A stretch of 52,407 nt of DNA, taken from positions 1 to 52,407 of IMG/VR virus record IMGVR_UViG_3300009008_003239, one strand, 5' to 3'. Within the stretch, counting starts at the first letter, position 1; every line of letters starts with the position of its first letter. The notes below the pieces were generated by a model. It had not been told where the DNA came from. It worked only from the letters and a program-made list of their open reading frames with translations, and did no database searches. This stretch comes from a virus. Below, one piece after another: positions 9,167 through 52,272 of the stretch. The translations under genes and the position numbers were made by a program.

Positions 9167-9187
9167 GTTTTGGTCCAGCCATCTAAA

Positions 9188-12492: not shown

Positions 12493-12494
12493 CT

Positions 12495-12890: not shown

Positions 12891-12900
12891 AACCTATCCC

Positions 12901-31165: not shown

Positions 31166-31810
31166 TCAACAATAGTGGTTAATTACTCTAAAGCTTTCAA
31201 ACTTAAACAAGCCTTTTTTGCTTTCTGCAAAATTTGAGTGAAACAATTCAATACAATAATTTGAAAAGTAGCTACTATCTGCTTGGGTTTTAAAATGTCT
31301 CATAAGGCACTCTGACTTAAGTGTATAGTTCTCGTTTATGTCTACAAGCAAGTTTGGTGTCCAGGTATTTAAAGTGCTGGGCGTCTTATATTCTACAAGA
31401 GAAGCTAGTGTGGCGCGCCCGAGGGCGTACATCAGGCGATTGCAAAGTTGGTGCTCAAAATGGGAGTCTTCGCTTGGAGTGCAAAATATTGCGTCATATT
31501 GTTTTGTATTAAGAAAAGATTCTATTTTCGAAACCCACTCAGCTTCATTTAGATCTTCAAAGCTTTGCTTTTCGTGATTGAGAAGGCAATTGACATTATC
31601 TAGCTTCAAGCTTCTCCAAAAATCTTGAGATTCTTTATATCGCAAACTTGTACTAGTATTGTCGGTAGACGTGCCGGTTGTCAAACACAAAACATCGAAT
31701 GAAGTATCCTTGTGCGCCATAACAACTCCAGACATAGAATACTCAACGTCATCTGGATGAGGGCTAATACACAACACTTTATCAAAATTTAAAAACTTTC
31801 GTGTCTTCAT
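31166..31810 (-). CDS. PIG-L/LmbE-family deacetylase (214 aa)
   Basis: A zinc-dependent N-acetylglucosaminyl deacetylase-like protein. The family start VLCISPHPDDVE carries the metal-binding H18, D20 and D21, and HFEH at about 117-120 gives the further His ligands. Family members remove acetyl groups from GlcNAc-containing lipids, thiols or sugars. The ATG overlaps the stop of the acyltransferase gene as ATGA. In this glycan cluster it could deacetylate an N-acetyl sugar, with the neighbouring acyltransferase re-acylating it. The pairing is inferred from gene order; the substrate is unknown. Confidence 0.88.
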   Translation of the reverse strand: MKTRKFLNFDKVLCISPHPDDVEYSMSGVVMAHKDTSFDVLCLTTGTSTDNTSTSLRYKESQDFWRSLKLDNVNCLLNHEKQSFEDLNEAEWVSKIESFLNTKQYDAIFCTPSEDSHFEHQLCNRLMYALGRATLASLVEYKTPSTLNTWTPNLLVDINENYTLKSECLMRHFKTQADSSYFSNYCIELFHSNFAESKKGLFKFESFRVINHYC

Positions 31811-32676
31811 ATTGATTTGAACCTCATTCCATTATAAATTTTAATTCCGTTTCTACGTAAAAAATCTCTTAAATCCTCTGATACTGAATTAAAATATCCC
31901 GATATAGTTTTATTTCCTATATCAAAAATTGTATCTTCTATTCCTGAACTGCTTTTCTGTTTTATGATTAATATCTTATTCTCTTGATTATAGTCATAAT
32001 TGATATCAAAATTGGCGATTTTCAATGGCATCAACACATTCGACCATCTATCCAGCAGTTGATTAATAATTCTAGCTAGTTCTTCATTTGTTGCTTCTTT
32101 AGGATATACATCTTGCTTTATTACTTTACAGGGGTTCCCTGCAGCTAAACAGCCTGCGGGTATATTCTTGTTGACTAAACTACCTATGCCAATTACAGTG
32201 TTGTCTCCTATCGAAGTATTCGGCAACATAATGCATCTCGGAGGAAGCCAGACGCTGTCCCCTATTGTAATGGGGCCAAAAGAGGCAGGAAAGCCAGAAG
32301 TCACATCGAGCCAGGCGCCATGAGTCCATAACATTGATTCTGCTCCAATTCCAACATCATCTCCTATAGTAATAGGACTATTGGGATTAATTATTGTATT
32401 CTCGAATATTCCAACATGATCTCCAATCTTGACATTAGCTTCCGGATTTTTGCTTCCGCCTCGACCAATTTCTACGCCTTTAGCTAAAAACAAGTACTCA
32501 CCGGCAATAAAATTTTGACATTCAATTTGCACATTATCCAAAATTGTTGAACACCGACCTAGGATAAAATTTCCTCTCACTTTTATTGAGACATTTTTTC
32601 CTATTACACAATTTTCACCTATCGATATTTCCTTCGCCTCGATACTAGAATTTTGATATATAAATTCTTTTTTCAT
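31807..32676 (-). CDS. Left-handed beta-helix (hexapeptide) acyltransferase (289 aa)
   Basis: The first two thirds consist of imperfect hexapeptide repeats with I/V/L-G-x-x patterns (SIGENCVIGKNVSIKVRG, VKIGDHVGIFENTIINP, ITIGDDVGIGAESMLW). A loop with WTHGAWLDVTS carries the conserved His, and SIGDNTVIGIGSLVNKNIPA follows. The segment ends LAAGNPCKVIKQD, typical of the WbbJ/maltose acetyltransferase family. These trimeric enzymes transfer acetyl or other acyl groups from acyl-CoA to sugars. The last 90 residues form a separate small region with no assignment. It sits between the epimerase and deacetylase genes, so the likely substrate is a sugar of the glycan made by this island. Confidence 0.88.
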   Translation of the reverse strand: MKKEFIYQNSSIEAKEISIGENCVIGKNVSIKVRGNFILGRCSTILDNVQIECQNFIAGEYLFLAKGVEIGRGGSKNPEANVKIGDHVGIFENTIINPNSPITIGDDVGIGAESMLWTHGAWLDVTSGFPASFGPITIGDSVWLPPRCIMLPNTSIGDNTVIGIGSLVNKNIPAGCLAAGNPCKVIKQDVYPKEATNEELARIINQLLDRWSNVLMPLKIANFDINYDYNQENKILIIKQKSSSGIEDTIFDIGNKTISGYFNSVSEDLRDFLRRNGIKIYNGMRFKSI

Positions 32677-32677
32677 T

Positions 32678-33538
32678 TTAACTTTGTTTTATTCGTTCTA
32701 TCCAATCTGTTACTTCTTTAGTAGTTTGCCAACCTAACACCTCTCTAGCTTTATTACTTTCTACTGCTACGGAGACGCGATCGCCCGGTCGGGCAGGGAC
32801 GAAAGCGATATCAGTTTCAAACATTTTTGCAATTTCTAGTATACTATAAGTCTTGTGATTGTTTAATTCAAACTCATCATTTTTGTCATATTTCCAAGAC
32901 CTTATTAGTCCATCTACTATGTCTCCAACATACGTGAAGGCTCTTTTTTGTTTCCCGCTGCCGCATATTGTTAGCGGCAAATTTGACTTATATTGTTTTT
33001 CAAAGACGCTTATCACTGATTCATAGCCTGGTGTCGGAGATGAATCGTATTTTGGGCCAAATGCGTTATAGAAATAACAAATAGCATATTTTAGCCCGTA
33101 CCAATCGGCGTAGCTTTTAATTAAATCAACAGACTTGCTCTTTGTGAAAGAGTACGGAGAATGCCCCACTCCCTCACTAGCAAAACGAGTGCTTGATGCA
33201 CCATATACTATTTTTTTAATATTATTTTGTCGACAATATTCAAGGACCGAAAAGGTACCTAGCGAGTTGGATTCCCACACTTTTTTGATATCTTCGAATG
33301 AAGTAGCTATTCTAGAATACTCTCCCAGATGAAAGACAGCGTCATAGTTTTCACCTTTCAATACCTGTTTCATGTCTTTTGTGTGCCCTTTTACATACTG
33401 CACACCTTCTATGTGGTTTTCTTCCTTGCCAGAACTATAATTGTCTATAGAGGTAATTTCATGCTGGTCTAAAAACAATCTCTCTATCAGATTGGTGCCA
33501 ATAAAGCCTGCTCCGCCAGTTACTAAAATCCTGCTCAT
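32678..33538 (-). CDS. NAD-dependent sugar epimerase/dehydratase, extended SDR (286 aa)
   Basis: A Rossmann-fold SDR that starts MSRILVTGGAGFIGTNLIE with the TGGxGFIG cofactor motif. The catalytic triad is visible as GASST (about 114-118) and Y129-S-F-T-K133. The middle and end show SRIATSFEDIKKVW and RAFTYVGDIVDGLI, common in UDP-glucose/GlcNAc 4-epimerases and related enzymes. At 286 residues it is slightly short. It likely changes the stereochemistry of a UDP- or dTDP-sugar. The exact reaction cannot be read from the sequence. It ends one base before the acyltransferase start. Confidence 0.88.
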   Translation of the reverse strand: MSRILVTGGAGFIGTNLIERLFLDQHEITSIDNYSSGKEENHIEGVQYVKGHTKDMKQVLKGENYDAVFHLGEYSRIATSFEDIKKVWESNSLGTFSVLEYCRQNNIKKIVYGASSTRFASEGVGHSPYSFTKSKSVDLIKSYADWYGLKYAICYFYNAFGPKYDSSPTPGYESVISVFEKQYKSNLPLTICGSGKQKRAFTYVGDIVDGLIRSWKYDKNDEFELNNHKTYSILEIAKMFETDIAFVPARPGDRVSVAVESNKAREVLGWQTTKEVTDWIERIKQS

Positions 33539-34263
33539 AGTTTATAGCTCTTGTATCTGTTGTGATATCCTCTGCTCTTTATATTGACGTACGGATCCCA
33601 TATAGAACCAAAGCTAATCATCCAACAATTTCGGCCTATCACAGGATATAACTCGTCCTGTATTGGTAAAGTTGGCATGCCAGCAGACATCCCAAAGACC
33701 ACATCATCATACTTTTCATATACATCCAACATATCACTAATTATTTGATCTTTCTTTGTCCAGCAATCAACTGCTGGGATATCTACGTAGTCAACATACT
33801 TAATGTTCAGATCTCTTTTTCTAGGTTCCGATACTATTACAAAGTTCATTTTTTCAAGTTGCTTCTTTAGATCTCCAAGTTTTCCTTTTTCTGCACAATC
33901 ATACAGTGAATCCTCAATCTCAACATCATGAAGGTTCAATGAACTTAGGTTGTATTTTTCGATATATTTCTTAAATAATTTACTAGTGTGTCTGCCGTTG
34001 CCGTGCCCAGTGTACCAATCCTTGCTACATATTTTAGGATATTTTTTTTCAACAACAAACGTGTTGTGTATTGCCTCCCCTAGGGATTGAAAATACTGAT
34101 GTTTATCAGCGTTAACGCTACCTAAGTAATTTTTAGGCATCCACCCCAAGGCTTTAAAAAGCGCAAAAAGTTCGCCGTCACCGAACTTGCCAAGCGTATA
34201 GTAGTCTCCTTTTTCTAACAAGTCAATGTAATCATACATGGTGTAATTTTTAAAAGTTATCAT
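33535..34263 (-). CDS. GT-D-like glycosyltransferase candidate (242 aa)
   Basis: Starts MITFKNYTMYDYIDLLEKGD and soon shows YYTLGKFGDGELFALF, matching the R/KFGDGE motif of GT-D (DUF1792) glycosyltransferases, where the acidic residues bind metal and sugar nucleotide. Later segments include KDWYTGHGNGRHTSKLF, FVIVSEPRKRDL, DDVVFGMSAGMPTLPIQDEL and NCWMISFGSIWDPYV, in line with the second Rossmann-like half. It overlaps the epimerase gene by four bases and follows the remains of a methyltransferase. The GT-D assignment is motif-based; the acceptor is unknown. Confidence 0.6.
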   Translation of the reverse strand: MITFKNYTMYDYIDLLEKGDYYTLGKFGDGELFALFKALGWMPKNYLGSVNADKHQYFQSLGEAIHNTFVVEKKYPKICSKDWYTGHGNGRHTSKLFKKYIEKYNLSSLNLHDVEIEDSLYDCAEKGKLGDLKKQLEKMNFVIVSEPRKRDLNIKYVDYVDIPAVDCWTKKDQIISDMLDVYEKYDDVVFGMSAGMPTLPIQDELYPVIGRNCWMISFGSIWDPYVNIKSRGYHNRYKSYKL

Positions 34264-34279
34264 ACAGCCTTATTCCTTA

Positions 34280-34567
34280 TCATATCAGCTTATACAGCAC
34301 AATACATTCTTCATCGTTGATGTACAACTGTTCTGCTTTAAAAAGTTTTAAAAACGTTTCTTTAAAGTCATAGTGGCTGTGATCATCGATAAATACATGA
34401 CTACCGGGTTTGAGATGCCCCATCATATGCAGGAAAGCAATATTTCGGCCGTTGCCATTTGGCCCGTCTAATATCATCAAGTCATAATCGCCAACTATGT
34501 CGTTCTCTTGAACGTCATAAAAATTATTTTTTGCAAAATCCCTAAAGATAGTTTGCCCAGTGTCCAA
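34280..34567 (-). pseudogene. C-terminal remnant of a sugar-cluster methyltransferase
   Basis: A frame of 95 codons opening with TTG two codons after a TAA. It contains the back half of a class I methyltransferase-type fold: VGDYDLMILDGPNGNGRNIA is the strand holding the DGP motif, then HLKPGSHVFIDDHSHYDF, and the end YINDEECIVLYKLI. The SAM-binding first half (GxGxG motif) is absent. Upstream in another frame lies MLTNEKIQQYNTNGW, which reads like the proper N-terminus but runs into stop codons. An internal deletion plus frameshift of a host-derived glycan methyltransferase explains this best; a functional short protein is possible but less likely. Confidence 0.55.
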
Positions 34568-34609
34568 CCATTAGTGTTGTATTGTTGAATTTTTTCATTT
34601 GTTAACATA

Positions 34610-34753
34610 TCATTTCCGCTTGCTGTCTTTTCTTAAAACCAAATCAAGCACTAGAGGGTATTCATATACTCTTGACCAAGAATTATAAATCGGATTTGAT
34701 TTTTCTTCTGTCAAAATTTTTCTAAATTCTAAAACTTTAAATTTATTTTGCAC
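34610..34753 (-). pseudogene. N-terminal remnant of a second glycan-cluster protein
   Basis: A 47-codon frame starting at GTG inside the end of the epimerase gene and stopping at 34610-34612. It reads QNKFKVLEFRKILTEEKSNP followed by IYNSWSRVYEYPLVLDLVL. This resembles the opening of sugar-cluster methyltransferases found near glycosyltransferases, in which the SRVYEYPLVLD segment precedes a missing SAM-binding domain. The frame ends abruptly at RKDSKRK. Together with the downstream fragment it suggests that one or two methyltransferase genes have been deleted in place. Similarity to methyltransferases is from memory of the family and is modest. Confidence 0.45.
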
Positions 34754-35762
34754 TTATTTCTCCCCGGTCAAAATTCGTAGAAAGAATTTTTAAAACTCTA
34801 TCTGCTGATCTTCCATCCCCATACGGGGACCTACATTCTATCACATAATCTTTAATATGTTGATTAAAAACATCTTTTAAATTTTGTGGATCAGCAACCA
34901 TAAAGCTGCTAGTATTAACAGCCTCTGGTCTTTCTGTCGTCTCTCTACAGACTAAGCACTTTTTATTAAAAAAAGAACATTCTTCTTGAAGACCACCACT
35001 GTCTGTTATGACCATGCGACACTTAACAAGAACCCTCATGAGTTCGTCATGAGCCATTGGTTTCACAACGCGGACATCAGATAAAATATGTTTATTTTTC
35101 TGAACATTTGGATTAGGGTGTAGGGGTAGAATAAAGTCTAAATCCTTATTTCTTTTAGCTAATTCGTTTATTGACTTAAACCAAGAATGCAATGTTGCAT
35201 GATTTTCGCGGCGGTGCATTGTCACCAATACTTTATCTGCATACTCACAACTCGCCTTATAGTGTAGTAAGTTGTCTAAGACTGTATTTCCCACAACATG
35301 AATAGGGGCAGTAACTCCCTCTCTTAATAAATTTGCCTTGTTTGTGTTGGTCGGACACAGATGCACAGAAGCTATAGCAGAAACAATCTTTCTATTGTAT
35401 TCTTCGGGATATGGATTGTTTACATCTTGTGTGCGCAGGCCTGCTTCGAGATGAACAACCTCGATTTTCCTATGCATTGCTGCTATGGCGAGGCCCACAA
35501 CAGAACTTGTGTCCCCTTGGACTATTACATGAGTTATGTTTTCAAAACACTCATCTGGTATGGAAAGGCAGTTTTTAATAACTGAATCTAAACGGTTACC
35601 CGGATAATCAACCATTTTCAGCTTAAAGTCTGCTTTCTTGGGGGCAATATCCTGATGCTGTCCAGTAAACAGTGTCTTATATGGAATTCTACCTCTAAAA
35701 GTCTCTATCAATGGTTTGACCTTAATATATTCAGGTCTTGTGCCAAAAGTTATTAATATCAT
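34743..35762 (-). CDS. wecB: UDP-N-acetylglucosamine 2-epimerase (non-hydrolysing) (339 aa)
   Basis: A WecB/MnaA-family enzyme that interconverts UDP-GlcNAc and UDP-ManNAc. It starts MILITFGTRPEYIKVKPLIE and shows TGQHQD. The catalytic acids are in VIVQGDTSS, VVHLEAGLRT and NPYPEEYNRK, and the catalytic His in MHRRENH. The C-terminal MVITDSGGLQEECSFF and CLVCRETTERPEA segments bind UDP. All key residues appear intact. The ATG overlaps the stop of the methyltransferase gene by four bases. At 339 residues it is slightly shorter than the usual 370. Together with the dehydrogenase at 30.3 kb it could supply UDP-ManNAc uronate. Confidence 0.92.
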   Translation of the reverse strand: MILITFGTRPEYIKVKPLIETFRGRIPYKTLFTGQHQDIAPKKADFKLKMVDYPGNRLDSVIKNCLSIPDECFENITHVIVQGDTSSVVGLAIAAMHRKIEVVHLEAGLRTQDVNNPYPEEYNRKIVSAIASVHLCPTNTNKANLLREGVTAPIHVVGNTVLDNLLHYKASCEYADKVLVTMHRRENHATLHSWFKSINELAKRNKDLDFILPLHPNPNVQKNKHILSDVRVVKPMAHDELMRVLVKCRMVITDSGGLQEECSFFNKKCLVCRETTERPEAVNTSSFMVADPQNLKDVFNQHIKDYVIECRSPYGDGRSADRVLKILSTNFDRGEISAK

Positions 35763-36328
35763 TTTGTTTTTTTATAAAAATAAAATTTTGCTTTAGTTTG
35801 CTCTTCAAAAGGATTTTCTAAAATTTTAAAATTCTCAAAATTATACTTTTCTACATCAGTAGTAAATTTTCTGTGGCACACGTGGCCAGCCGGGCATGCG
35901 TCAAAATTAGTACTATAAATAATGACATATTGCTCAGAAGACAAAAACAAGTTCTCTAAATGCTGATGATAGGTTTCTTTTTCAGTCAGATGGTATATAA
36001 CATCTAGTGAAATAGTTAGCTCTGCTTTATGTGACATGGTAAACTCTTCCAATAATCTAAACTTAAGATGCGGCTTGTCGCCATGGCGATTGTTGCAAAT
36101 GTCAACTGCGGATTGATAATCATACCCAGTATAATTTTTATATTTGATATTGGATAGCTGTATTCCATCTCCGCAACCAAGCTCTATTACTGATTCCGGG
36201 GCATAATCAGTCAAGAATTTGTTAATAACTTCCTGCTTATATACACACAGATCACCACGAGAGCCGGCGCCGGGGCCCAGATTACCTTTTAAATATCTAT
36301 TTTGCCAATATTCCCTACTGTCAAGCAT
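35759..36328 (-). CDS. SAM-dependent methyltransferase (189 aa)
   Basis: A class I methyltransferase. MLDSREYWQNRYLKGNLGPG opens the protein, and SVIELGCGDGIQLSNIKYKN is motif I (ELGCGDG binds SAM). YTGYDYQSAVDIC is the motif II acidic strand. ELTISLDVIYHLTEKETYHQ is the motif IV region with the characteristic SLDVIYHL. The end FYFYKKTK is a final strand. It lies within the glycan island directly downstream of the fused glycosyltransferase gene and probably methylates a sugar or terminal group; the substrate is inferred from context. Confidence 0.87.
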   Translation of the reverse strand: MLDSREYWQNRYLKGNLGPGAGSRGDLCVYKQEVINKFLTDYAPESVIELGCGDGIQLSNIKYKNYTGYDYQSAVDICNNRHGDKPHLKFRLLEEFTMSHKAELTISLDVIYHLTEKETYHQHLENLFLSSEQYVIIYSTNFDACPAGHVCHRKFTTDVEKYNFENFKILENPFEEQTKAKFYFYKKTK

Positions 36329-36329
36329 G

Positions 36330-37919
36330 TTATTCCCTCCTGATACGTATAGGTTTCCAGCCGTTTTTTATTGAGTATTTCACAGCCTCATTGCGTTCTT
36401 CATAAAACACATTGTGATTTCTGCTAGCGCTACTGGCGCAGGCGTCTACACCATATTCGTATCCTTTAAGCGAACTATGAAAATCAAGCTGGTCGGCCGG
36501 GTGAGGCGGACAAAAAGAAGATATATTTCCGTATTTTTGTGCCGTATAGGCGAAGTGTATGTCCTCTCCATTATCCCAAGTTAAAGGATCTTCCATCCAC
36601 ATGTATTTAAGCCATGCGCGCTTAAAAAACCAGGCATGCCCAACTAGATCAACTTCTATTATTTCTTCATTTTTAGAAGACCAGCCGTGGCGAGTGTGCC
36701 CAGTGTACGCGTCGTTGTTTAATACGACGCCGGCGCCGCCATATATCCCCTCTCGCTCTTTCATTGATTTTAAGCAATTTTCAACCCAACGCTTTCCTGG
36801 TATTGTATCGTCGTCAAAGAAAGCCACATATTCTGTTTTAGCTAACATTGCTGCAGCAAATCGACCAAAATACTTCCAATTGTGATCATTTTCAAATACT
36901 CTTTCCACATTTAATTCAGAAAAATCAAATTTTTCGTTGTCTTCGTGGTGGTTAACCCACAACCAAATTTCAGTGGGAGCAATTGTCTGTGATCTTAGCG
37001 ACTGTATTTGCTCCTTCAGATACTCAGGTCGTCTATAACAGTTCAAAATAACTGTTACTTTATCAAGTTTAGCATCATTTATAGCCTCTTTGAAGACGTT
37101 ACAAGCTGATTGGGTGCGTTTCCGAATAGCTTCTATTAGTTCTTTACCGCCAAGGCTAGCCAAATCTGTTTCACTAAAAAATCCAATTAGTTTTGGCGTT
37201 GTTTTTATTTTGCAGTTCATCATTCTTGCTTCTGCGACGACGCGACAGAACGTTTCTAGAACTTGAGGAAGGAAGAGTATTTCTTCTGTTTCACTAATTT
37301 GCTGCAAAAATTCTTCTTCTGGCGCGGGGAGAATGAAATCATGCTCAATATTATTACTTTTACAGTAATTAACCGCTTGTGTAGTTCCTTTTATTGGGTT
37401 ACTTGACTTTATGATTGAAAGCTTTTTATTTTTCTGATTATTAGATTTCTGCTCAATAAGATCAAGCCTTTCGTCTGACCATAAGCTAGTACCTATATTG
37501 ACCACATTTGTTAAATTTAAGTTTTCTTTTAATACGAGACTGCATATCTCACTTAAAACAAATACTTTTCTTGCATTCTTATAAAAATTTACATTTATTA
37601 AATTCTCTATAGGTATAGAAAAGTTTTTAAACTTTGAAGGATCGCGGGTCGTACAATATTTGTGATCATGTTCATAAATTATATAATCTAAATTTTCAAC
37701 AAGATATTTTTTACAAGCCTGCGATAAGGCAATAAAATTACTAATAATAAAACAGCTGTTTTTGTACTCTCTCAAAAACTGCAAGGTACACTTAGAAGAT
37801 TGTTTTTTTGTGATTAAAAAACCTTCTTTTTCTAAAAAATCAATTAATACCGAATCATTAGACTCTGCTCCCCCCAATATATGATCAGAGAAAAAATCAG
37901 CTATAAAAACGACACTCAT
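36330..37919 (-). CDS. Bifunctional glycosyltransferase: GT-B (GT4-like) fused to GT2 (529 aa)
   Basis: I use the ATG at 37919, two bases after the upstream stop, because the protein then starts MSVVFIADFFSDHILGGAES, a normal glycosyltransferase N-terminus. The longer frame uses an upstream GTG and adds an unlikely basic leader. The first half is GT-B/GT4-like: LGGAES near the start, YIIYEHDHKYC, ARKVFVLSEIC, then KSSNPIKGTTQAVNYC and ETEEILFLPQVLETFCRVVA, where the E-x7-E-like acidic region is partly degenerate. The second half, from about residue 285, is GT2: KVTVILNCYRRPEYLKEQIQ, then YVAFFDDDTIPGKRWVENCL with the metal-binding DDD, and LTWDNGEDIHFAYTAQKYG. It probably adds two successive sugars or has one inactive half. 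Confidence 0.82.
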   Translation of the reverse strand: MSVVFIADFFSDHILGGAESNDSVLIDFLEKEGFLITKKQSSKCTLQFLREYKNSCFIISNFIALSQACKKYLVENLDYIIYEHDHKYCTTRDPSKFKNFSIPIENLINVNFYKNARKVFVLSEICSLVLKENLNLTNVVNIGTSLWSDERLDLIEQKSNNQKNKKLSIIKSSNPIKGTTQAVNYCKSNNIEHDFILPAPEEEFLQQISETEEILFLPQVLETFCRVVAEARMMNCKIKTTPKLIGFFSETDLASLGGKELIEAIRKRTQSACNVFKEAINDAKLDKVTVILNCYRRPEYLKEQIQSLRSQTIAPTEIWLWVNHHEDNEKFDFSELNVERVFENDHNWKYFGRFAAAMLAKTEYVAFFDDDTIPGKRWVENCLKSMKEREGIYGGAGVVLNNDAYTGHTRHGWSSKNEEIIEVDLVGHAWFFKRAWLKYMWMEDPLTWDNGEDIHFAYTAQKYGNISSFCPPHPADQLDFHSSLKGYEYGVDACASSASRNHNVFYEERNEAVKYSIKNGWKPIRIRRE

Positions 37920-37921
37920 TG

Positions 37922-39181
37922 TCAAAGCGCTTCTATCTTTTCTAATTCTTCTTTCCACGAATCGTCAACAGTCAAAATTGAATTTATTTGGTCAACATAT
38001 TCGGCGTATTGTTTTTCTTCATTGAAGTTTTCACAAACCCAAGCTTGTAGTTGTTTGGCTTGCTTCTTGAAACGGCCGTGATCTTTGTATACATCACTCA
38101 AGCACGTCTTTATAGAGCCTTGTTCTGGGTAGGCCCAGGCAGAGCCTTCGACTAAGATGTCTTTCCATACTACGTCTTTCGAAATCTCACTCAATGTATA
38201 ACTAACCCGGCTGAACATTGGCTTTGTCTTTATCTTGCCACTCTTTTGTTTTGTTGGCATGTATAAAAAGTCTAAGTGGCCACTCCAATCAGTAGCAATT
38301 ACAGGCAGGCCATAATATGCAGCTTCAAATAGTGGTAGCCCAAAGCCTTCTCCATGTGTGGTAGAGACAATCGCTTTGATGTCGGGGTGTGTGTAAAGGC
38401 CGGCCATCTCGCTGTCGTTCAAATATCCATGCAATAGGTAAATTTTGCACTTTCTATCGGGATATTTTGACATTATAGCCTTAAAGTTATGTAGGGTCTG
38501 TCTACGATCAATAAGTGAGTTTTTTGCCATATTTGCCTTAACAATCAGGCCAACATCTTCATTATCACCAAATTCCTCTATAAATGCTTCAAACAGCTGG
38601 CCAGCATTTTTTCGTGGACTTATCTGTGAAACCGCTAAAAAATTGAATTTTGTTGTTAAATTTAGGTCTAATTCGGTCGTTTCATGCTTCAAAACGGGGT
38701 ATGACACGCATTCTACCGGTTTTTGTACTCTAAAATCTACTCTTTCGCCAGTTTGGTTGTTTGTCGCCTCATAGACAGTATTAACGTAAGTATCGACAGA
38801 ATGCTTGCTAATTGTAAGAATTTTATCCATTAAAAAGGACTTTTCGATCCAATTTGCTGATACCTTTGTTGTTTCAATGCCGGCAGTTACACCAATATTG
38901 ATCGGAGCTAGCTTTTCCCACTCGTTAGGGATTGTCACCTGAATGGACGCATCATACGTGCCACCTTGGGAGGCGTGTTCTATTGTTTTTTCAAGAAGTG
39001 CATCGATTTCTCGCCTCTCCTCGTTGTCTTCCCATAACCAACTGGTTTTACCCCATGGTATCGGATGCAAATAGATATCAAACAAATCAGGTCTTGTCTT
39101 CAAAGCCCGTAAAACAGTGCGAGCGTGGTGCCCATACCCAGATTGTGTCAAAAAAGGACCCTTTAGGTATACTTTCTTCAT
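37922..39181 (-). CDS. GT4-family glycosyltransferase (419 aa)
   Basis: A GT-B fold transferase. The N-terminus KKVYLKGPFLTQSGYGHHAR carries the Gly-rich loop for the acceptor domain. The donor-binding domain shows FNFLAVSQISPRKNAGQLFE, VGLIVKANMAKNS, CKIYLLHGYLNDSEMAGLY and THGEGFGLPLFEAAYYGLPV, the last holding the E-x7-E motif (EGFGLPLFE). It would transfer a sugar from a nucleotide-sugar donor to a glycan or protein. It is preceded by a second GT4 gene whose stop lies one base from its start, suggesting that the two act in sequence. Confidence 0.9.
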   Translation of the reverse strand: MKKVYLKGPFLTQSGYGHHARTVLRALKTRPDLFDIYLHPIPWGKTSWLWEDNEERREIDALLEKTIEHASQGGTYDASIQVTIPNEWEKLAPINIGVTAGIETTKVSANWIEKSFLMDKILTISKHSVDTYVNTVYEATNNQTGERVDFRVQKPVECVSYPVLKHETTELDLNLTTKFNFLAVSQISPRKNAGQLFEAFIEEFGDNEDVGLIVKANMAKNSLIDRRQTLHNFKAIMSKYPDRKCKIYLLHGYLNDSEMAGLYTHPDIKAIVSTTHGEGFGLPLFEAAYYGLPVIATDWSGHLDFLYMPTKQKSGKIKTKPMFSRVSYTLSEISKDVVWKDILVEGSAWAYPEQGSIKTCLSDVYKDHGRFKKQAKQLQAWVCENFNEEKQYAEYVDQINSILTVDDSWKEELEKIEAL

Positions 39182-39182
39182 A

Positions 39183-40436
39183 TTAAACCTCTAATAATTC
39201 CCAGTGGTTATGATCTTCCTTGCGCGTAGGCCAGGAACCGTACCTCTCGTGTACTTCTCTAAGTAAAACTTCCCATTGTACAGTAAACTTCTTAAAATTA
39301 TAGTTTTCCTTTACATGGTTCAAACCGCCGTCGATCATCTTCTGGCGTTCTTCATCAGGCATATTGTACATCTTCTCTAGCGCGGAGATGAAATCTTCTT
39401 TATTAAGCCTGTCCTCGTATATGTACGGAATTTCTTGAGATCCGATGACTGCCTTGGATGCTGGCTCAATTCCGATGCCAAACCAGTCCTCTCCATTGGT
39501 TACCTGCTCCTGCAAGCCGCCTGTCATGTTGACAACAATTGGAGTACCGCATGAGAGAGACTCTAGTGTTGCTAAGCCAAAGCCCTCAGCATCAGAAATA
39601 TTAACAGTGACATCCGCAACGTTATAGAGAGTTGCCATCTGCTCTGCTTCGAATTTATTCACTGAGAACTGTACCTCTCCATTGGTTAGGCCCAGGTTGC
39701 TTATTATTGCGCCTAGATTTGGCCCATTCGGGTCCTTTGGATCAGTATGCATGACTAATACGGCCTTATCGTGGCCGACGCGATCCAAGAATTCCTTAAA
39801 CCAATGTATCAAAGTACCAGGCTGCTTGCGCCTTGCGTTCCTATTGTTCCAAAAAATAACAAACTTATCAGTTAAGTTCGATGATTCACGAACTTCTTTT
39901 ATGCGCTCAGGATCTTGTGGTTTAAAAACCTCGTCATTCACAGCGTGTGGTACATAATGCGTCTCTGTTTCAGGAGACACAGTTTGCACTATATCATGCG
40001 TAACCTTAGAAATTGCAGCAACAACATCCGTAGAGTCATACCAGACTTTATTGAAATCCGGATAAGGATAATTATCCCACACATGATAATAAACCATTGG
40101 TATCAAGGATCTAACTTCGTCTTCTATTTCCCAGAGCCAGCCAAAAAATCGCGGATCAGTCATAAACCACAACATATCAGGCTTCTCAGTCCTGAGGATG
40201 GAGCGGATAGCTTCTTGCGTCCCATATCCGTCTACAGGATAGACAACTAGATCATCGCCATACTCCTTAAACTTTTGTGGTTTATAGTCATTGTGGCGTA
40301 CAGCACCACCAAAACATACAAATGAAAAATCTCCAGTCTTAAGAAGGCTCTCAACAACATACCGTGTTTGGGTACCGACTCCAGATGGAGAAAATGGGTG
40401 ATCCGATAATACCAGGACCTTGATTTTTTCTGACAT
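39183..40436 (-). CDS. GT4-family glycosyltransferase (417 aa)
   Basis: A GT-B fold transferase beginning MSEKIKVLVLSDHPFSPSGV with GTQTRYVVESLL. The C-terminal domain shows KFVIFWNNRNARRKQPGTLI, AVLVMHTDPKDPNGPN, ATLYNVADVTVNISDAEGFG and LATLESLSCGTPIVVNMTGG; the EGFGLATLE stretch is the E-x7-E nucleotide-sugar motif. It is the first gene of the glycan island in transcription order, three bases after the nuclease gene. The island is thus transcribed together with the preceding DNA-metabolism genes. Donor and acceptor are unknown. Confidence 0.9.
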   Translation of the reverse strand: MSEKIKVLVLSDHPFSPSGVGTQTRYVVESLLKTGDFSFVCFGGAVRHNDYKPQKFKEYGDDLVVYPVDGYGTQEAIRSILRTEKPDMLWFMTDPRFFGWLWEIEDEVRSLIPMVYYHVWDNYPYPDFNKVWYDSTDVVAAISKVTHDIVQTVSPETETHYVPHAVNDEVFKPQDPERIKEVRESSNLTDKFVIFWNNRNARRKQPGTLIHWFKEFLDRVGHDKAVLVMHTDPKDPNGPNLGAIISNLGLTNGEVQFSVNKFEAEQMATLYNVADVTVNISDAEGFGLATLESLSCGTPIVVNMTGGLQEQVTNGEDWFGIGIEPASKAVIGSQEIPYIYEDRLNKEDFISALEKMYNMPDEERQKMIDGGLNHVKENYNFKKFTVQWEVLLREVHERYGSWPTRKEDHNHWELLEV

Positions 40437-41231: not shown

Positions 41232-41626
41232 TTTTTCCTCGTAATTGTCTTTCGCGTCGACTTTGTTGTCTTCTTGGAATTTGTAGTCTTTGTTGCACTA
41301 GTTGTTTTTCTAGGCGCCGCACTCTTAGTCGTGCGCGGTGGTGGAGTTGGATCCGGAGTTTTGGTGCGCTTTTGTCTTACCGGCACTAAATCAAATTCCC
41401 AAGTAGCTGTGCAGCCATTGATGTAGTTGTTATCGATAACCTTGTACTTCTCCTTGCACTCACCAAGCACGTGTGATGATGGAGGGACATACTCAGTATT
41501 GACTATGTTCTTTACATCATTCCACTTGACGCGGATGCGTGGATGGTGCACCCTCGAACGATGCTTCAAGGTTATGGTCACCTTCATCGTTCCGCTGGCT
41601 AGATCATTTTTAAATTTACATTCCAT
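41228..41626 (-). CDS. Hypothetical protein with Pro/Thr/Lys-rich basic tail (132 aa)
   Basis: I start at the ATG at 41626 (MECKFKNDLASGTMKVTITL), preceded by GAGG nine bases upstream; the frame also extends to 41680. The first 90 residues form a beta-rich domain (VTITLKHRSRVHHPRIRVKW, YINGCTATWEFDLVPV) with three Cys. The last 45 residues are a disordered, highly basic tail: TPDPTPPPRTTKSAAPRKTT, then repeats of KTT/KST. Such tails bind nucleic acid in histone H1-like and AlgP-type proteins. No family is recognised. It lies between the HExxH protein and the nuclease gene, with an 11-base overlap upstream. Confidence 0.65.
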   Translation of the reverse strand: MECKFKNDLASGTMKVTITLKHRSRVHHPRIRVKWNDVKNIVNTEYVPPSSHVLGECKEKYKVIDNNYINGCTATWEFDLVPVRQKRTKTPDPTPPPRTTKSAAPRKTTSATKTTNSKKTTKSTRKTITRKK

Positions 41627-42314
41627 ATTGGTCATCCTCAGGCTTGTCATTACACAATAACAACAATTTCTTATAAACATAGGGACATAATGTCTTTAAG
41701 AAAGTGTGATTTCCTAAATAATACTCTTCAAACCCTCTCGCAAAGTATTCTCGCAAAGAAACAACTGAATATGGTGCAAGAAAAAGATCAACGGCTATAA
41801 GACGCAAAGCATCATACCCCACCTCGTCATACATAGCGTTGTCAAACGCCTCATCATATTCGATATTCATGAAGTCCAAACCTGCGATATCGTAGCCTTC
41901 ACTTTCTAGAAGGTTTTTTAATTTCTTTCGCTTATATAAAAATTCCTGTTCTATTGAGGAATCTCCATAGATGTTGTAGCCGTATTTGTCCTCTACTGCA
42001 TGAGCTATTTCATGAATAATGTCGTCTTTTAGATCATCTTCATCGTCTTGAACATTGGAAATGTATATAGCGCCGTCTGAGTACGTAGCGTTCATTTCTC
42101 GCTCGTCCAAGAAAGAAAATTTACCTATGTATATGACGTCGACTTGTTCTAAAAAGTGCTCCGGTATTATATTGACAATATCATTAAAAACACTTGATAT
42201 GTTTATGTTTTCAGAAATATTATCTTGTATAAAAACAGACAAAGGACCAAAATGATATTCAGGTAGTGTTCTATTTTTCTTTTTTACATGCTTTACTACA
42301 TTCTCTCTCTTCAT
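41616..42314 (-). CDS. HExxH zinc metallopeptidase-like protein (232 aa)
   Basis: The core is DDIIHEIAHAVEDKYG, with the HExxH zinc signature at about residue 100. A downstream REYFARGFEEYYLG could supply the third ligand (Glu), as in gluzincins such as the lethal-factor-like family. No signal peptide is seen, so it should act in the cytoplasm. The basic N-terminus reads MKRENVVKHVKKKNR. The start has GGAG seven bases upstream and overlaps the 97-residue gene by 44 bases. The target is unknown; proteolysis of a host regulator or processing of a phage protein are both possible. Confidence 0.72.
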   Translation of the reverse strand: MKRENVVKHVKKKNRTLPEYHFGPLSVFIQDNISENINISSVFNDIVNIIPEHFLEQVDVIYIGKFSFLDEREMNATYSDGAIYISNVQDDEDDLKDDIIHEIAHAVEDKYGYNIYGDSSIEQEFLYKRKKLKNLLESEGYDIAGLDFMNIEYDEAFDNAMYDEVGYDALRLIAVDLFLAPYSVVSLREYFARGFEEYYLGNHTFLKTLCPYVYKKLLLLCNDKPEDDQYGM

Positions 42315-46140: not shown

Positions 46141-47145
46141 TTAGCTTATACTGTCTTTGTTTCCAGAGAAATGTATTTCTTTCAACTTAGGGATAGAAGA
46201 ATGATCATCGATGTAGCTTGTTATATACTTTAGCATTTCTGCTAAGTTGTCAAAATCTTTAGTTTTTTTGCTCTCATAAAGAGAAAATTGCTCAGCCTGC
46301 TCTAGGACATCAGTCTTATTTAGGACAAGATGGGTAACTCCATTAACATTAATGGAGCGCATCAAATTCTCTATATTCAACCAATTGCACTGCCTGGGCC
46401 TTCCAGTGGTAGCGCCATATTCCTCGCCAATATCACGAAGTTTTTGAAATATCTCTTTCTTAGGCTCGAAAGCTTTTGCGCCAACATAGGTGTCATAAAC
46501 TTTTCCAACACCCCAAACGTTTCTTACTGCGCTGGGAGGGATACCGTTTAGAAGCGCGCTGGCTGATGTACAATGACTAGAAGTTACATACGGATAATCT
46601 CCCCAATCAATGTCTAGTTCAAAACCCTGCGCGCCTTCGCAAAGCACCTTTGCATCAGGATTGTTATGTAACTCGTCGTATAAATCAACCAGCAATGGCT
46701 TAAGCTCTAGCGCGTCGCTAGCGCGGATCCCAGTTCTATTATACTTGTTTCTATAAGCTGGACCGGTACCTCTCTTCGTTGTACCAATTTTCTGGTCTTC
46801 CTCATCCTCTGACAAATGATCTCTTGTTATTATATGACAATTTTTTGCTATTTTTACCAAAGATGTGTCGATCCCCGCTCTACGAAGCTCTTCCAGTTCC
46901 TTAAAAAAGTGGCTAACATTCAATACACAGCCGGCGCCGATAATGCTCTTAATCCCATAAAACACTCCAGCTGGGATATAGTGTGTAACAAACTTCTTGC
47001 CATTGTGATAAATGGTGTGGCCGGCGTTACCTCCGCCATTAAACCTAATGACGTGTGTGTAATCTCCTTCTTTGCAAAGATGGTGAGTTACTTTGCCCTT
47101 GGCCTCATCTCCGTGTTGTAACCCTACAACGATATCGGCAATCAT
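46141..47145 (-). CDS. purA: Compact adenylosuccinate synthetase-like enzyme (334 aa)
   Basis: A GTP-dependent ligase family member that joins aspartate to a purine nucleotide. The P-loop-like segment IVVGLQHGDEAKGKV holds Asp13, the catalytic base of PurA. FNGGGNAGHT carries the catalytic His43. KIGTTKRGTGPAYRNKYNRT binds the nucleotide phosphate, CEGAQGFELDIDWGDYPYVT is the ligand loop, GATTGRPR is the aspartate loop and NKTD (276-279) recognises guanine. At 334 residues it is near the archaeal short form rather than the 430-residue bacterial form. Asp13 is kept, so it is not a canonical PurZ (which has Ser). It may make adenylosuccinate, or act on dGMP like the PurZ0 type. Confidence 0.9.
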   Translation of the reverse strand: MIADIVVGLQHGDEAKGKVTHHLCKEGDYTHVIRFNGGGNAGHTIYHNGKKFVTHYIPAGVFYGIKSIIGAGCVLNVSHFFKELEELRRAGIDTSLVKIAKNCHIITRDHLSEDEEDQKIGTTKRGTGPAYRNKYNRTGIRASDALELKPLLVDLYDELHNNPDAKVLCEGAQGFELDIDWGDYPYVTSSHCTSASALLNGIPPSAVRNVWGVGKVYDTYVGAKAFEPKKEIFQKLRDIGEEYGATTGRPRQCNWLNIENLMRSINVNGVTHLVLNKTDVLEQAEQFSLYESKKTKDFDNLAEMLKYITSYIDDHSSIPKLKEIHFSGNKDSIS

Positions 47146-48220: not shown

Positions 48221-49246
48221 TTAAAACCCTGCCATGGCATCAACTATTAACTTTGCTACTACATACGGATCGCAGTTTGAAGCCGGTCTTCGATCTTCTA
48301 CATATCCCTTCCACAATTCAGCTGTCGACGTTGGTACCCGAATTGAAGAGCCTCTGTCGGCCACGCCCCATGAAAATTTCGAAATATGTTGCGTTTCATG
48401 ATCACCAGTTAGTCTATTTTCGTTACCTAGTCCATATCCAGCTATATGTTTATCATGCCTTTTTTCGAAAGATTCGAATACTTTTTCAAAATATTCCTTC
48501 CCACCTACGTTTCGCATGTGAAAGTTGCTGAAATTTGTATGACACCCGGATCCGTTCCAGTCCCCTCTGATTGGCTTGGGGTCTATATTGATATCCCAAC
48601 CATTTTCTTCACACATCTTGTATAGCATGTATCTACTAATCCATAAGTCGTCACATGCTTTTAGTGTATCTGTCGCAAAGCACTGGAATTCCCATTGCCC
48701 TATTGCTACTTCTGCATTAACTCCTGTTAAGTTTATTCCAGAGGAGAGGCATTTTTTTAAATGTGCTTCAACCAGCGGCCTTCCTTTTACTTGGTTCCCA
48801 CCAACACCACAGTAGTACAAACCTTGTGGCTCAGGGTAGCCATCGCTAGGAAAACCAAGTGGCTTGCCATTGACAGTAATAAAGTACTCCTGCTCAAACC
48901 CCCACCAAAAAGTATCTGTATCCAGCAAAGCAAGGCTATTATTCAAAGACGCCCTTTTATTTGACACATGAGTAACACCGTTAGCATCTAAAACTTCGCA
49001 AAGTACAATATAGTGTTTATCGCTATATCGATAATTCCTAACAGGCTGTAAAATGCATTCTGATGAAGCTCCCGGCGCTTGCTTTGTTGAACTTCCATCA
49101 AAATTCCACAGGGGCGTCTCCCCGGTCCAATTGCGCATAGTTCTTATTTTACTTCTTAAATTAGGGGTTTTATAGCCATCCAACCACACATACTCTAAAA
49201 TTGTAAATTCGCTATCATTAGCAGCAGGTTGTTTTAGGTTCTTCAT
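48221..49246 (-). CDS. glnA: Type II glutamine synthetase (341 aa)
   Basis: Makes glutamine from glutamate, ammonia and ATP. The family is type II (eukaryote/Flavobacteria-like), not the 470-residue type I: the N-terminus shows LEYVWLDGYKTPNLRSKIRT, and the beta-grasp end is WNFDGSSTKQAPGASSECIL. Metal and substrate residues are in FEQEYF (117-122), NAEVAIGQWEFQ (177-188) and GDWNGSGCHTNFS (228-240). RLTGDHETQ follows, then WGVADRGSSIRVP (293-305) and EDRRPASNCDPY (317-328). All catalytic segments appear intact. No Shine-Dalgarno is visible. It lies in the non-structural block with a PurA-like enzyme. Confidence 0.95.
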   Translation of the reverse strand: MKNLKQPAANDSEFTILEYVWLDGYKTPNLRSKIRTMRNWTGETPLWNFDGSSTKQAPGASSECILQPVRNYRYSDKHYIVLCEVLDANGVTHVSNKRASLNNSLALLDTDTFWWGFEQEYFITVNGKPLGFPSDGYPEPQGLYYCGVGGNQVKGRPLVEAHLKKCLSSGINLTGVNAEVAIGQWEFQCFATDTLKACDDLWISRYMLYKMCEENGWDINIDPKPIRGDWNGSGCHTNFSNFHMRNVGGKEYFEKVFESFEKRHDKHIAGYGLGNENRLTGDHETQHISKFSWGVADRGSSIRVPTSTAELWKGYVEDRRPASNCDPYVVAKLIVDAMAGF

Positions 49247-49270: not shown

Positions 49271-50821
49271 TTACTGCTGCTCATACCAGTTAATTGACAG
49301 ATCCCCAGCAATATTCTGGCTTGAACGAAAAGCAATGACTAAATTACTATTGCGTGTAATTACAAATCTCATGTCACTCAAATCAACTGTGGTAGACGAT
49401 TGTGGCGCGACTGCAAAAGTGTAAAATGGCGTTGCCCCCACAGTTGTTATTGTGCTTGTACCAGGAACCAATGTTGAAGTTGAAGCAACACTATTTGTCT
49501 CATTAACGTACTGATAATCGACTTCGCCTCCGATGTCGACACCCTCAAACAGTCCTACAGTAAGAGTTTTTGCAGTGTTCTCATTGGAACAATTGATTGA
49601 TAATATGTCAAACTCCCCATAGCTAACTTTGTTATTAAAAATTGCATCTACTTTCATAGCCAGCACTGGTTGATCTAGAAAGTCATTATCATTTTGGCTA
49701 GAGAAAGTAATAGCTTTACTGTATTGTGGATCCAGATTTGCCGTTTTGCCCTCTACAAATGCTCCAAGAGATCCACCTTTTAAAGTTACATTAGTGGTGT
49801 TGCCTGTGTTGAGGTTCAACAACTTCGGCGACATATTAGGGTTTCTCAAGACAGGAGTTGTTCTGGAATTGGCATTTTTTATTTCATGAACTTTGATAAA
49901 GTTACCAGTATCAGGATCTTCCACACTGAAATGCGCATTGCCAAATCCTAAATATTGATACCCTACTTGGTAGACATTCCCTTTTTGTGGGTCTAAAACC
50001 ATCCCAGAATCACCGGTGCCATCCAACTTGTCACCATTGAAGCTTCCAGATGGAATAAAAGTATCAGTTGGATCAACGCCTGCATTTATTTGAGAAAAAG
50101 TTCCAGCAATCGTGGCTCCGGAAACAGAATAAGTGCCAGTTTTTCCACTTTTAGGTCTAGTTGAGACAAAATACACATCTGAACCGACAGCATCAGCAAA
50201 CCACCCGTCTCCAACTTGAGAATAATCTGCTTTTGATAGTTGATAAGCAGTCTGTGTAGTGTCATTTCCCCCCACTACTGCCACTATGATTGAATTTCCG
50301 TTAAGAGTGACCGTAACATCACCACTATTTGCACCTGAGGTGATTTCAACTTTTCTTACTTCAACCTGTCCAGTTTCGCGGTGAAGAACACCAAAGTCTG
50401 TACCATCATAACCAAAATAATATCCAGATTCATCATTACCAATACCAATTAGCTGTTTATTATTCGCCACTGGAGTATCAAAAATTGCAGTACCTCTCAT
50501 TAGAGAGCCCTGCCCAGGTCTGTATTTTAAACCTCTTCGAGTTCGAACTTCTGCGCAACCTGCAGAATCAGTACCAGTGCTGACTTCAGCCATTCCATTG
50601 CTATTAGATACTGACGCACCAGTGAAACTACCGGTTGTAAAAACCCTGTCGTTAACTCCGTAAACAAAATCGCCCTGAGCTACGGGCATCACATCTGAGG
50701 TTGTGATCTCTCCGAATGCACTCAGTGGGCTTGTAATTGCTGCTTCTTGAACTCCACCAAGTTTTTTTGGCTTATTTAAGTCGGTATATCCCGTTATCCT
50801 ACTCCTATTGAACCAGACCAA
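49271..50821 (-). CDS. Virion surface/fibre-like protein (516 aa)
   Basis: A beta-rich, Gly/Ser/Thr/Asn-rich protein with a distinctive RRGLKYRPGQGSLMRGTAIF, GIGNDESGYYFGYDGTDFGV and LHRETGQVEVRKVEI segment at about 95-165, and a GYQYLGFGNAHFSVEDPDTG segment at about 290-310. I recall this signature from structural proteins of marine phages and of algal DNA viruses. The end (LVIAFRSSQNIAGDLSINWY) suggests a jelly-roll-like C-terminus. The frame opens at TTG (50821) inside the preceding gene, and no canonical ATG with a Shine-Dalgarno exists, so the start is uncertain. It is probably a surface-exposed fibre or capsid-decoration protein. Confidence 0.75.
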   Translation of the reverse strand: MVWFNRSRITGYTDLNKPKKLGGVQEAAITSPLSAFGEITTSDVMPVAQGDFVYGVNDRVFTTGSFTGASVSNSNGMAEVSTGTDSAGCAEVRTRRGLKYRPGQGSLMRGTAIFDTPVANNKQLIGIGNDESGYYFGYDGTDFGVLHRETGQVEVRKVEITSGANSGDVTVTLNGNSIIVAVVGGNDTTQTAYQLSKADYSQVGDGWFADAVGSDVYFVSTRPKSGKTGTYSVSGATIAGTFSQINAGVDPTDTFIPSGSFNGDKLDGTGDSGMVLDPQKGNVYQVGYQYLGFGNAHFSVEDPDTGNFIKVHEIKNANSRTTPVLRNPNMSPKLLNLNTGNTTNVTLKGGSLGAFVEGKTANLDPQYSKAITFSSQNDNDFLDQPVLAMKVDAIFNNKVSYGEFDILSINCSNENTAKTLTVGLFEGVDIGGEVDYQYVNETNSVASTSTLVPGTSTITTVGATPFYTFAVAPQSSTTVDLSDMRFVITRNSNLVIAFRSSQNIAGDLSINWYEQQ

Positions 50822-51234
50822 TTATCGACTAAGCTAGTCTTATTAATTCCGGTTAAGCCGGCGCCTATAGAGGCTGAACATTCATTTACAGAATCGCTCA
50901 TTAAGTAGATGTCTATTACTTTGAATTCTGCTTCAAAACTTTCGCCGTTATTCAAAATTAGATAGTTGTTGTCTACTAAGCCTTTGACACCTACGTCAGA
51001 AAAACCGAATCTTAAAGGCACATTAGTAGCACTACCAGGAAGAGTATTTGTTACAATAATAAACCTTGAAACTGATTCAAACGATATTTTTAATGTCGTA
51101 GAACCAGACGCTGGCACAGCCAAGGATGAGGTAAGATATGGCCGTCCGGAGACTTGATAAGACCCCACATTTCCCAGCCCAACTTTGTGTTGGTTGAAGA
51201 TAGCTTGTCCAGTCTTAGGATCGGTAGTGGCCAT
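50794..51234 (-). CDS. Virion protein, partner of the 516-aa protein (146 aa)
   Basis: MATTDPKTGQAIFNQHKVGL starts the protein. The GNVGSYQVSGRPYLTSSLAV and TLKISFESVSRFIIVTNT stretches form a compact beta-sandwich, and the end is SIGAGLTGINKTSLVDNWSG. The GSYQVSG and LTGI features recall small proteins that accompany the 516-residue-type protein in marine viruses. The two genes overlap by 28 bases (frame difference -1). A paired role in one virion structure is inferred from this arrangement. Confidence 0.75.
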   Translation of the reverse strand: MATTDPKTGQAIFNQHKVGLGNVGSYQVSGRPYLTSSLAVPASGSTTLKISFESVSRFIIVTNTLPGSATNVPLRFGFSDVGVKGLVDNNYLILNNGESFEAEFKVIDIYLMSDSVNECSASIGAGLTGINKTSLVDNWSGSIGVG

Positions 51235-51304: not shown

Positions 51305-51376
51305 TTACTCATCTTTCCATGTGGCATATATTAAACATATTAAGATAATGCCTCCAAAGATTGCTGCTAACTTCAT
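51305..51376 (-). CDS. Candidate 23-aa single-pass membrane peptide
   Basis: The ATG (complement of 51374-51376) overlaps the TGA of the cargo-protein gene as ATGA, the usual coupled arrangement in this genome. It encodes MKLAAIFGGIILICLIYATW followed by KDE: one hydrophobic helix of about 17 residues with a positive N-terminus and acidic C-terminus, the layout of a tiny membrane-spanning peptide. There is no strong Shine-Dalgarno, but coupling to the upstream gene could provide ribosomes. It is too short for database-style certainty. Confidence 0.45.
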   Translation of the reverse strand: MKLAAIFGGIILICLIYATWKDE

Positions 51377-52272
51377 ACACCAGCCCACTCTTTAAGGTCG
51401 CTTAATAGGGAGGCTGATCTTTCTTTAGAGGCAATGTTTAAGCTAGGAGATTTATTAGCATATTTTCCATGCCACCAGACATAATCTCCAGCCTCTACCA
51501 CCATCTCTTCAAAGTCGTCCACTATATTTCGAATTTCACCCTCACCGTTCATGGCCTTTTCCGCTACAGCATATATCCCGGATCCGACCGTCCGCACCCA
51601 CCAGTCCAAGCTATTTTCTAGTTTTCGAGGATCAGCAGCTGGATCTTCTATTATAGCTATATAACTGTGTACATCCTGCATTATACTCTTAAGATCTTCA
51701 GTGATTGGTGAACCTGTCATTTCAGCTAGTTGCAAACCATGTACACCGTTATTTAAAAAAGCATTGAAGATCTTTTCTTCGTCACTTATTTTTGCCTCCA
51801 GGTCATTAGCAATATCACGAAGTTCTGCAGCATCATCTACATCAGAATCTGGGTCCGCTGCTTCGGTTAGGTATATTCGCCAATTTTCAAATAAATTTAG
51901 TTGATGAGGGCTTGTTTCTACACGCCGTAGGAAAGCGTTGAGGTCTTCTTCTTCATCTGATTTAACAGTTGGCCATTTATCTGCCTCATTAGTGCCGTCT
52001 GGTATAGTCGCGCTAAAAATCCACATGCCTAATCCAGTATCATACTCATAGTCAATTATCGGCTGTCTCGGGCTCCAACGATGCTGTGAGCTTTGTGCGG
52101 AATTAAAGCTAGCATCTTGAATTGCATCTTCGATTGCCGATCGATCTAATACTTTTGGTTGTTCGACATCCGCACTAGGATGAATGGCCAACTCTGCTTC
52201 ATCAGATAAGCCGTCATTGTCTGCGTCTGTCTCTTTTAGATATCCTCGCCAATTTTCAAATAGTTTCTGCAT
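51373..52272 (-). CDS. Candidate capsid cargo protein with two capsid-targeting-like motifs (299 aa)
   Basis: The N-terminus is MQKLFENWRGYLKE followed by an acidic DADNDGLSDEAEL. The same pattern recurs at residues 127-137, LFENWRIYLTE, again followed by an acidic stretch (AADPDSDVDDAAEL). In T4, internal proteins start with a capsid-targeting sequence such as MKTYQEFIAE that ends in (L/I)xE, the prohead-protease cut site; both copies here end LKE and LTE in the same position. The two halves (1-126 and 127-299) look like fused, diverged paralogues. This suggests a protein packaged into the prohead and cleaved by the maturation protease. The DxDNDGxSD stretch is a calcium-binding (thrombospondin type 3-like) pattern. 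The comparison to T4 is by motif only. Confidence 0.7.
   Translation of the reverse strand: MQKLFENWRGYLKETDADNDGLSDEAELAIHPSADVEQPKVLDRSAIEDAIQDASFNSAQSSQHRWSPRQPIIDYEYDTGLGMWIFSATIPDGTNEADKWPTVKSDEEEDLNAFLRRVETSPHQLNLFENWRIYLTEAADPDSDVDDAAELRDIANDLEAKISDEEKIFNAFLNNGVHGLQLAEMTGSPITEDLKSIMQDVHSYIAIIEDPAADPRKLENSLDWWVRTVGSGIYAVAEKAMNGEGEIRNIVDDFEEMVVEAGDYVWWHGKYANKSPSLNIASKERSASLLSDLKEWAGV
51879..52262 (-). repeat. 16-base direct repeat encoding the LFENWR motif
   Basis: CGCCAATTTTCAAATA occurs at 51879-51894 and again at 52247-52262. Both copies encode the complement of the LFENWR motif in the same frame. The flanking bases differ. The repeat is part of the coding sequence rather than a mobile or regulatory element and marks the internal duplication in the cargo-like protein. 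Confidence 0.7.

Follow-up and report, generated by a model that had tools for sequence, protein, structure and literature searches.

The window, meaning here the whole stretch of 52,407 bases that was analysed, is a linear virus record that represents a genome fragment of a marine T4-like phage and encodes baseplate wedge, late sigma-like, PhoH and head structural proteins. One gene on its minus strand encodes a 299-amino-acid protein with two copies of a 14-residue sequence, here called the W tag, each followed by an acidic stretch and a separate module. The features of this gene and of its neighbours are as follows:

51373..52272 (-), putative two-tag cargo protein of 299 aa, ATG start, stop codon at 51373-51375
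52231..52272 (-), tag 1, residues 1-14, MQKLFENWRGYLKE, PWM score 42.8, predicted gp21-type cut after E14
52180..52230 (-), acidic TSP3-like stretch TDADNDGLSDEAELAIH, residues 15-31, sub-threshold match to PF18884
51904..52155 (-), module A, residues 40-123, small alpha/beta fold in the model, homologues behind W tags
51862..51903 (-), tag 2, internal, residues 124-137, QLNLFENWRIYLTE, PWM score 34.3, predicted cut after E137
51808..51861 (-), acidic linker AADPDSDVDDAAELRDIA behind tag 2, from alignment with L002
51376..51834 (-), module B, residues 147-299, all-helical fold with helices in the model, homologues separately tagged
50794..51234 (-), neighbour gene of 146 aa, head-operon family
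49271..50821 (-), head/virion structural protein, phrog_1645, E 1.2e-30

The two motif copies claimed in the earlier note, LFENWRGYLKE at residues 4-14 and LFENWRIYLTE at residues 127-137, are present, as are the acidic stretches that it placed behind them. The direct repeat that it had put at 16 bases also exists, the identical block being 17 bases long (TATTTGAAAATTGGCGA) and lying within a 36-bp direct repeat with 81% identity and 369-bp spacing. Several codons differ around the shared block, so tag 2 has not been freshly copied from tag 1. Residues 100-140 of the protein include no in-frame ATG, GTG or TTG codon, and the second half is therefore not separately initiated there. The FENWRxYLxE motif was found in no other gene of the window. 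The first acidic stretch matches PF18884, the TSP3 calcium-binding repeat, with 18.7 bits, below the 25-bit cut-off, and the same TSP3-like stretch follows the tag in L002 and L056. The tag of L002 is followed by VDTDNDGIDDEKELAI, which aligns with the linker behind tag 2 of the window protein; judged by this alignment, the linker is a degenerate counterpart of the TSP3-like stretch.

Viral contigs and bacterial and archaeal genomes were searched with a degenerate DNA pattern for FENWRxYLxE that had no start-codon anchor. At least 91 stretches were matched in viral contigs, compared with two for a control with the same codons permuted, and 257 Gb of bacterial and archaeal genomes gave three matches in small random ORFs. 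The viral matches nearly all begin four residues behind a start, usually as MKLLFENWRKYLNE, and nearly every one heads a different protein. The motif search over phage sequences that the earlier note had proposed thus revealed not random placement but an N-terminal tag on hundreds of unrelated proteins. Scanning the collected loci with a position matrix identified at least 535 distinct ORFs with a W tag or a second type of tag described below, grouped into about 280 families, and 516 of the 547 tags in these 535 ORFs lie directly behind the start codon. Counts of tagged stretches, ORFs and families are lower bounds; a looser, start-anchored pattern matched more. The loci were gathered by means of tag patterns, which inflates the conservation of the tag except where positions free of selection are stated.

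The 337 complete W-tagged proteins fall into 143 BLAST families, 87 of them singletons. They align solely over residues 1-14, and an alignment of 121 representatives retains the tag alone. The sequence [LIVM]xE occupies positions 12-14 in 72 of 87 families. Among 323 N termini chosen by M[KQ]x[LI][FLM]ExW alone, with positions 12 and 14 outside the selection, E14 is found in 272 and L, I, V or M at position 12 in 294. On these alignments FENWRxYLxE is the core of a 14-residue tag whose conservation ends at [L/I]xE.

Phages with the W tag also have a second class of tag, MKITKSQLKQIIKE. This K tag (MKITKSQLKQIIKEEL) was N-terminal in 81 of 84 cases in the first scan and is often accompanied by an additional LxE site near residues 20-22. 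Its residues L8, I11, I12 and E14 are in register with the W tag, and no DNA sequence is shared between the two. About 150 proteins are K-tagged, in L018, L145, L154, L003, G001, G002, G003, G005 and others. A K-tagged protein of L083 and a W-tagged protein of L145 share 81% identity over 108 aa behind their tags; by this comparison the two tags are interchangeable, some cargoes carrying either. Two K tags are also found on the protein encoded directly downstream of gp21 in the head operon of G005 (G005:C1:37826-38914 (-), L194), which links the tag to head assembly genes.

The proteins behind the tags are diverse. Pfam identifies about 35 families among W-tagged proteins, each in one or two members, including NUDIX, protein kinase, guanylate kinase, tRNA nucleotidyltransferase, HNH, exonuclease, amidase, SLT, murein endopeptidase, GDSL lipase, HAD and other domains. 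Their genes tend to be arrayed: G002 has nine W-tagged genes between 10.4 and 19.5 kb and G003 nine W tags between 23.2 and 28.8 kb, and the four genomes that were read each contain some 5-10 W-tagged and several K-tagged genes.

Both modules of the window protein are encountered in such settings. Module A lies directly behind a W tag in L032, L079, L039 and L281, where it is joined to other domains, while module B forms a separate W-tagged protein in L002 and L079 and carries a K tag in L277. L079 has A and then B, in the order of the window protein, with other tagged genes in between. In the window protein the conserved end of module A, QLNL, abuts the FENWR of tag 2. The AlphaFold model of the 299-aa protein, built on 8 sequences with a mean pLDDT of 68, falls below a pLDDT of 50 only at residues 1-39 and 122-139, the two tag regions; module A is folded at residues 40-121 and module B consists of helices. 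According to this model, the tag regions are disordered between folded modules. Neither module has a match in Pfam, PHROGs, PDB or the viral structure library, save the sub-threshold TSP3 match, and a Foldseek search of both gave a best E of 0.09, with no function or known fold. As judged from these homologues, the window protein is a fusion whose halves both exist elsewhere as separately tagged proteins, and the fusion probably arose by deletion within a tagged-gene array. Module B was also seen as the C-terminal module of a protein of about 850 aa (ORF from 3877) in L275, a 293-kb contig; this protein contains several internal RxLLxE-like sites (LRDHIRALLAE, ELRKYIRSLLSE and ECVRRILTE), which may represent a third class of tag, in a larger phage.

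The earlier note had regarded a repeated, internal tag as an oddity. It is not unique: about 2% of tagged ORFs have two or more tags, and at least ten multi-tag proteins were found besides that of the window. G003 encodes a 730-aa protein with an internal tag, the module downstream of which shares 50% identity (E 4e-81) with a tagged protein encoded separately. L115 encodes a protein with two tags, whose module 1 is found separately elsewhere. In a relative of L073, modules are separated by a linker ending in LLNE. W tags at the C terminus are carried by proteins of L008 (612 aa), L178 (334 aa) and L073 (376 aa), the first two without an N-terminal W tag. The L008 protein, by eye, is apparently lysozyme-like plus SGNH-like. 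An ORF of 1145 codons in L110 (near 8190-13300, minus strand) encodes a long, low-complexity protein with several tags of both classes, the W type at the start, at codon 556 and at the C terminus, and the K type as two identical internal copies; this protein may be core-like or carry multiple cargoes.

A candidate machinery for cutting such tags is present in phages that bear them. In answer to the earlier note's call for a prohead protease, gp21 of T4 type was found, together with gp23, in 22 of 30 tag-bearing records, namely all those of about 130 kb or more. The gp23 propeptides of tagged phages end in LL[RK]E in 20 of 20 cases, just before the mature domain, where T4 gp23 has FLTE. Neither gp21 nor gp23 is among the annotated genes of the window, a 52-kb fragment. 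The family of its neighbour gene at 50794-51234 has tblastn matches (E 2e-10 to 8e-6) in G001, G002, G003 and G005, where it sits between gp21 and gp22/gp23. Cultured phages searched with the 299-aa protein or a 20-residue tag gave no match, short queries being insensitive, and neither tag is found in the parts read of the nearest cultured relatives by gp23, Flavobacterium phage immuto, Microcystis phage Mel-JY01 and Rhodothermus phage RM378 (its positions 80-130 kb).

The capsid-targeting sequence (CTS) of T4 provides the closest comparison by register. The leader of T4 IPII and IPIII, as read from the T4 genome, is MKTYQEFIAE, in which positions 4 and 7 serve targeting and positions 8 and 10 processing (PMC9026906). 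Counted back from the cut, Y4/F7/I8/E10 of T4 correspond to W8/Y11 (or F11)/L12/E14 of the W tag, and L8/I11/I12/E14 of the K tag fall on the same positions. On the sequences, this is a match in register and not overall homology. Beyond MK and the four register positions the sequence differs, and the tag has no recognisable overall similarity to MKTYQEFIAE or MKTFKEF of the kind that sequence descent from the T4 CTS would call for. As with the CTS of IPI, IPII, IPIII and Alt, a short N-terminal peptide is common to otherwise unrelated proteins, ends in a gp21-type [LI]xE, has hydrophobic or aromatic residues in register at both mapped targeting positions, and occurs in genomes with gp21 and gp23 of T4 type. 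Unlike the T4 CTS, the tag is 14 rather than 10 residues long, exists as two classes per genome, and is also located inside and at the end of proteins.

Two other systems invite comparison. The ejected head proteins of the giant phages SPN3US and phiKZ likewise possess N-terminal propeptides that a prohead protease cuts, as is predicted here; their propeptides, however, are mostly longer than 100 residues with AxE-type cut motifs, and they have no conserved 14-residue tag across many families. Two diverged paralogues with an identical N terminus are described in SPN3US (PMC5694885). The T-even Ip arsenal resembles the tagged proteins in comprising hypervariable, clustered and (here putatively) injected proteins with the leader as the sole common element, but about 10 Ips are reported, whereas the cargo families found here number some 280, many of which contain enzyme domains. 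GmrSD restriction enzymes are blocked by T4 Ip1-3, a different one by each (PMC12373910).

We consider it likely that the tags form a capsid-targeting system and that the window protein is a two-cargo polyprotein cut by gp21. A large group of T4-like phages, uncultivated and mostly marine, would use a cleavable capsid-targeting sequence of 14 residues to load many different proteins into the prohead core; gp21 would then cut after the terminal L/I-x-E, and the freed cargo would enter the next host together with the DNA. Two cargo genes of a tandem array would have become fused to give the window protein. Tag 1, and possibly tag 2 too, would dock it in the core, and gp21 would probably split it after E14 and E137, yielding a cargo A of 123 aa (residues 15-137) and a cargo B of 162 aa (residues 138-299). 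With a single cut behind E137, tag 2 would remain as the C terminus of cargo A and might retain this cargo in the core. The T4-like targeting logic put forward in the earlier note draws support from the N-terminal tag on hundreds of proteins, the presence of gp21 and gp23, the LxE end and the T4 register, and its two-cargo reading from the occurrence of both halves elsewhere as separate, individually tagged proteins. Packaging, cleavage, injection and effector function are what we infer for tagged proteins from their sequences.

The main rival accepts the tag as real but takes tag 2 as a harmless relic of fusion: a deletion joined two neighbouring tagged genes, and the product is one two-domain protein, packaged via tag 1, in which a cut at E137 is either absent or without consequence. 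Such fusions arise easily in tandem arrays of tagged genes, the order of A and B with other tagged genes between them in L079 fits a deletion, the join falls where QLNL meets the tag, and the share of multi-tag ORFs is small. Tag 2, however, retains all consensus positions including W, Y, L and E, and proteins with several tags recur, with various modules and with tags of either class; in the relative of L073, an LLNE-ending linker likewise separates modules. We hold this explanation to be unlikely, though not to be neglected.

Less probable still is an uncleaved peptide for docking or localisation, to a scaffold, membrane or host factor, with a coincidental LxE end. About 16% of W tags have no E at position 14, and at a C-terminal tag a cut would free no N terminus; C-terminal tags nevertheless also fit cleavage, as T4 Alt has propeptides at both ends (PMC9026906). 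The sharp end of conservation at E14, the same [LI]xE register in the unrelated K tag, and the LxE end of the gp23 propeptide in the same phages argue for a cleaved tag. That the double tag is an assembly artefact, two genes having been joined at the repeated tag, appears very improbable. The 17 bases identical in both tags and the position of the gene 135 bp from the contig end would permit it, and a second contig with the same fusion was looked for and none was found, but the k-mers usual in assembly are longer than 17 bases, the reading frame is intact across the join, and G003, L115 and others contain similar fusions. Chance, or a DNA-level repeat acting as a recombination or promoter element without peptide function, has a negligible probability: a direct repeat does exist in the DNA, but the controls yielded just two and three matches, the K tag keeps the W-tag register without a shared DNA sequence, and codons vary synonymously at the conserved residues (six codons each at L and R), which indicates selection on the peptide and led to the rejection of the DNA-level reading.

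Extended from the two-cargo polyprotein to the whole group of phages, a widespread lineage, the capsid-targeting reading describes a modular loading of the head, in which at least two interchangeable 14-residue tags would bring in ten or more proteins per phage, some of them encoded as polyproteins with several tags, from which the protease would release separate injected effectors at fixed stoichiometry. To this wider proposal we give slightly better than even chances. Its principle is already known from T4. Searches of the open-access literature brought up no paper about FENWR or about arrays of CTS-bearing genes in marine T4-like phages, and in the literature searched no description was found of the tag sequences and their two classes, of how large and enzymatically varied the cargo set is, or of the recurrent multi-tag proteins.

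To our knowledge, it is mostly in a few model phages that the proteins carried in the head and injected have been identified. A tag of 14 residues that can be read in DNA would offer a lookup of candidate injected effectors: every gene behind a W or K tag is such a candidate, including dozens of families of unknown function. All three T4 proteins with leaders of this kind are anti-restriction factors (PMC12373910), and tagged arrays may therefore be rich in counter-defence genes. Two interchangeable classes together with internal tags would, moreover, demonstrate a portable targeting signal, a property useful for loading chosen proteins into phage heads.

Other genes of the window were also noted. 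A phage-borne glutamine synthetase (PF00120) is encoded at 48221-49246 and an adenylosuccinate synthetase (PF00709) at 46141-47145, the latter being encoded also downstream of the tagged gene of L073. Positions 41616-42314 encode a putative zinc metallopeptidase with an HEIAH motif (sub-threshold Pfam match, E 0.0025). A sugar-modification island at 31166-40436 contains UDP-GlcNAc 2-epimerase, NAD-dependent epimerase, PIG-L deacetylase, hexapeptide transferase and several glycosyltransferases, and a single ORF of 3439 aa occupies 12901-23220 in the tail/baseplate region.
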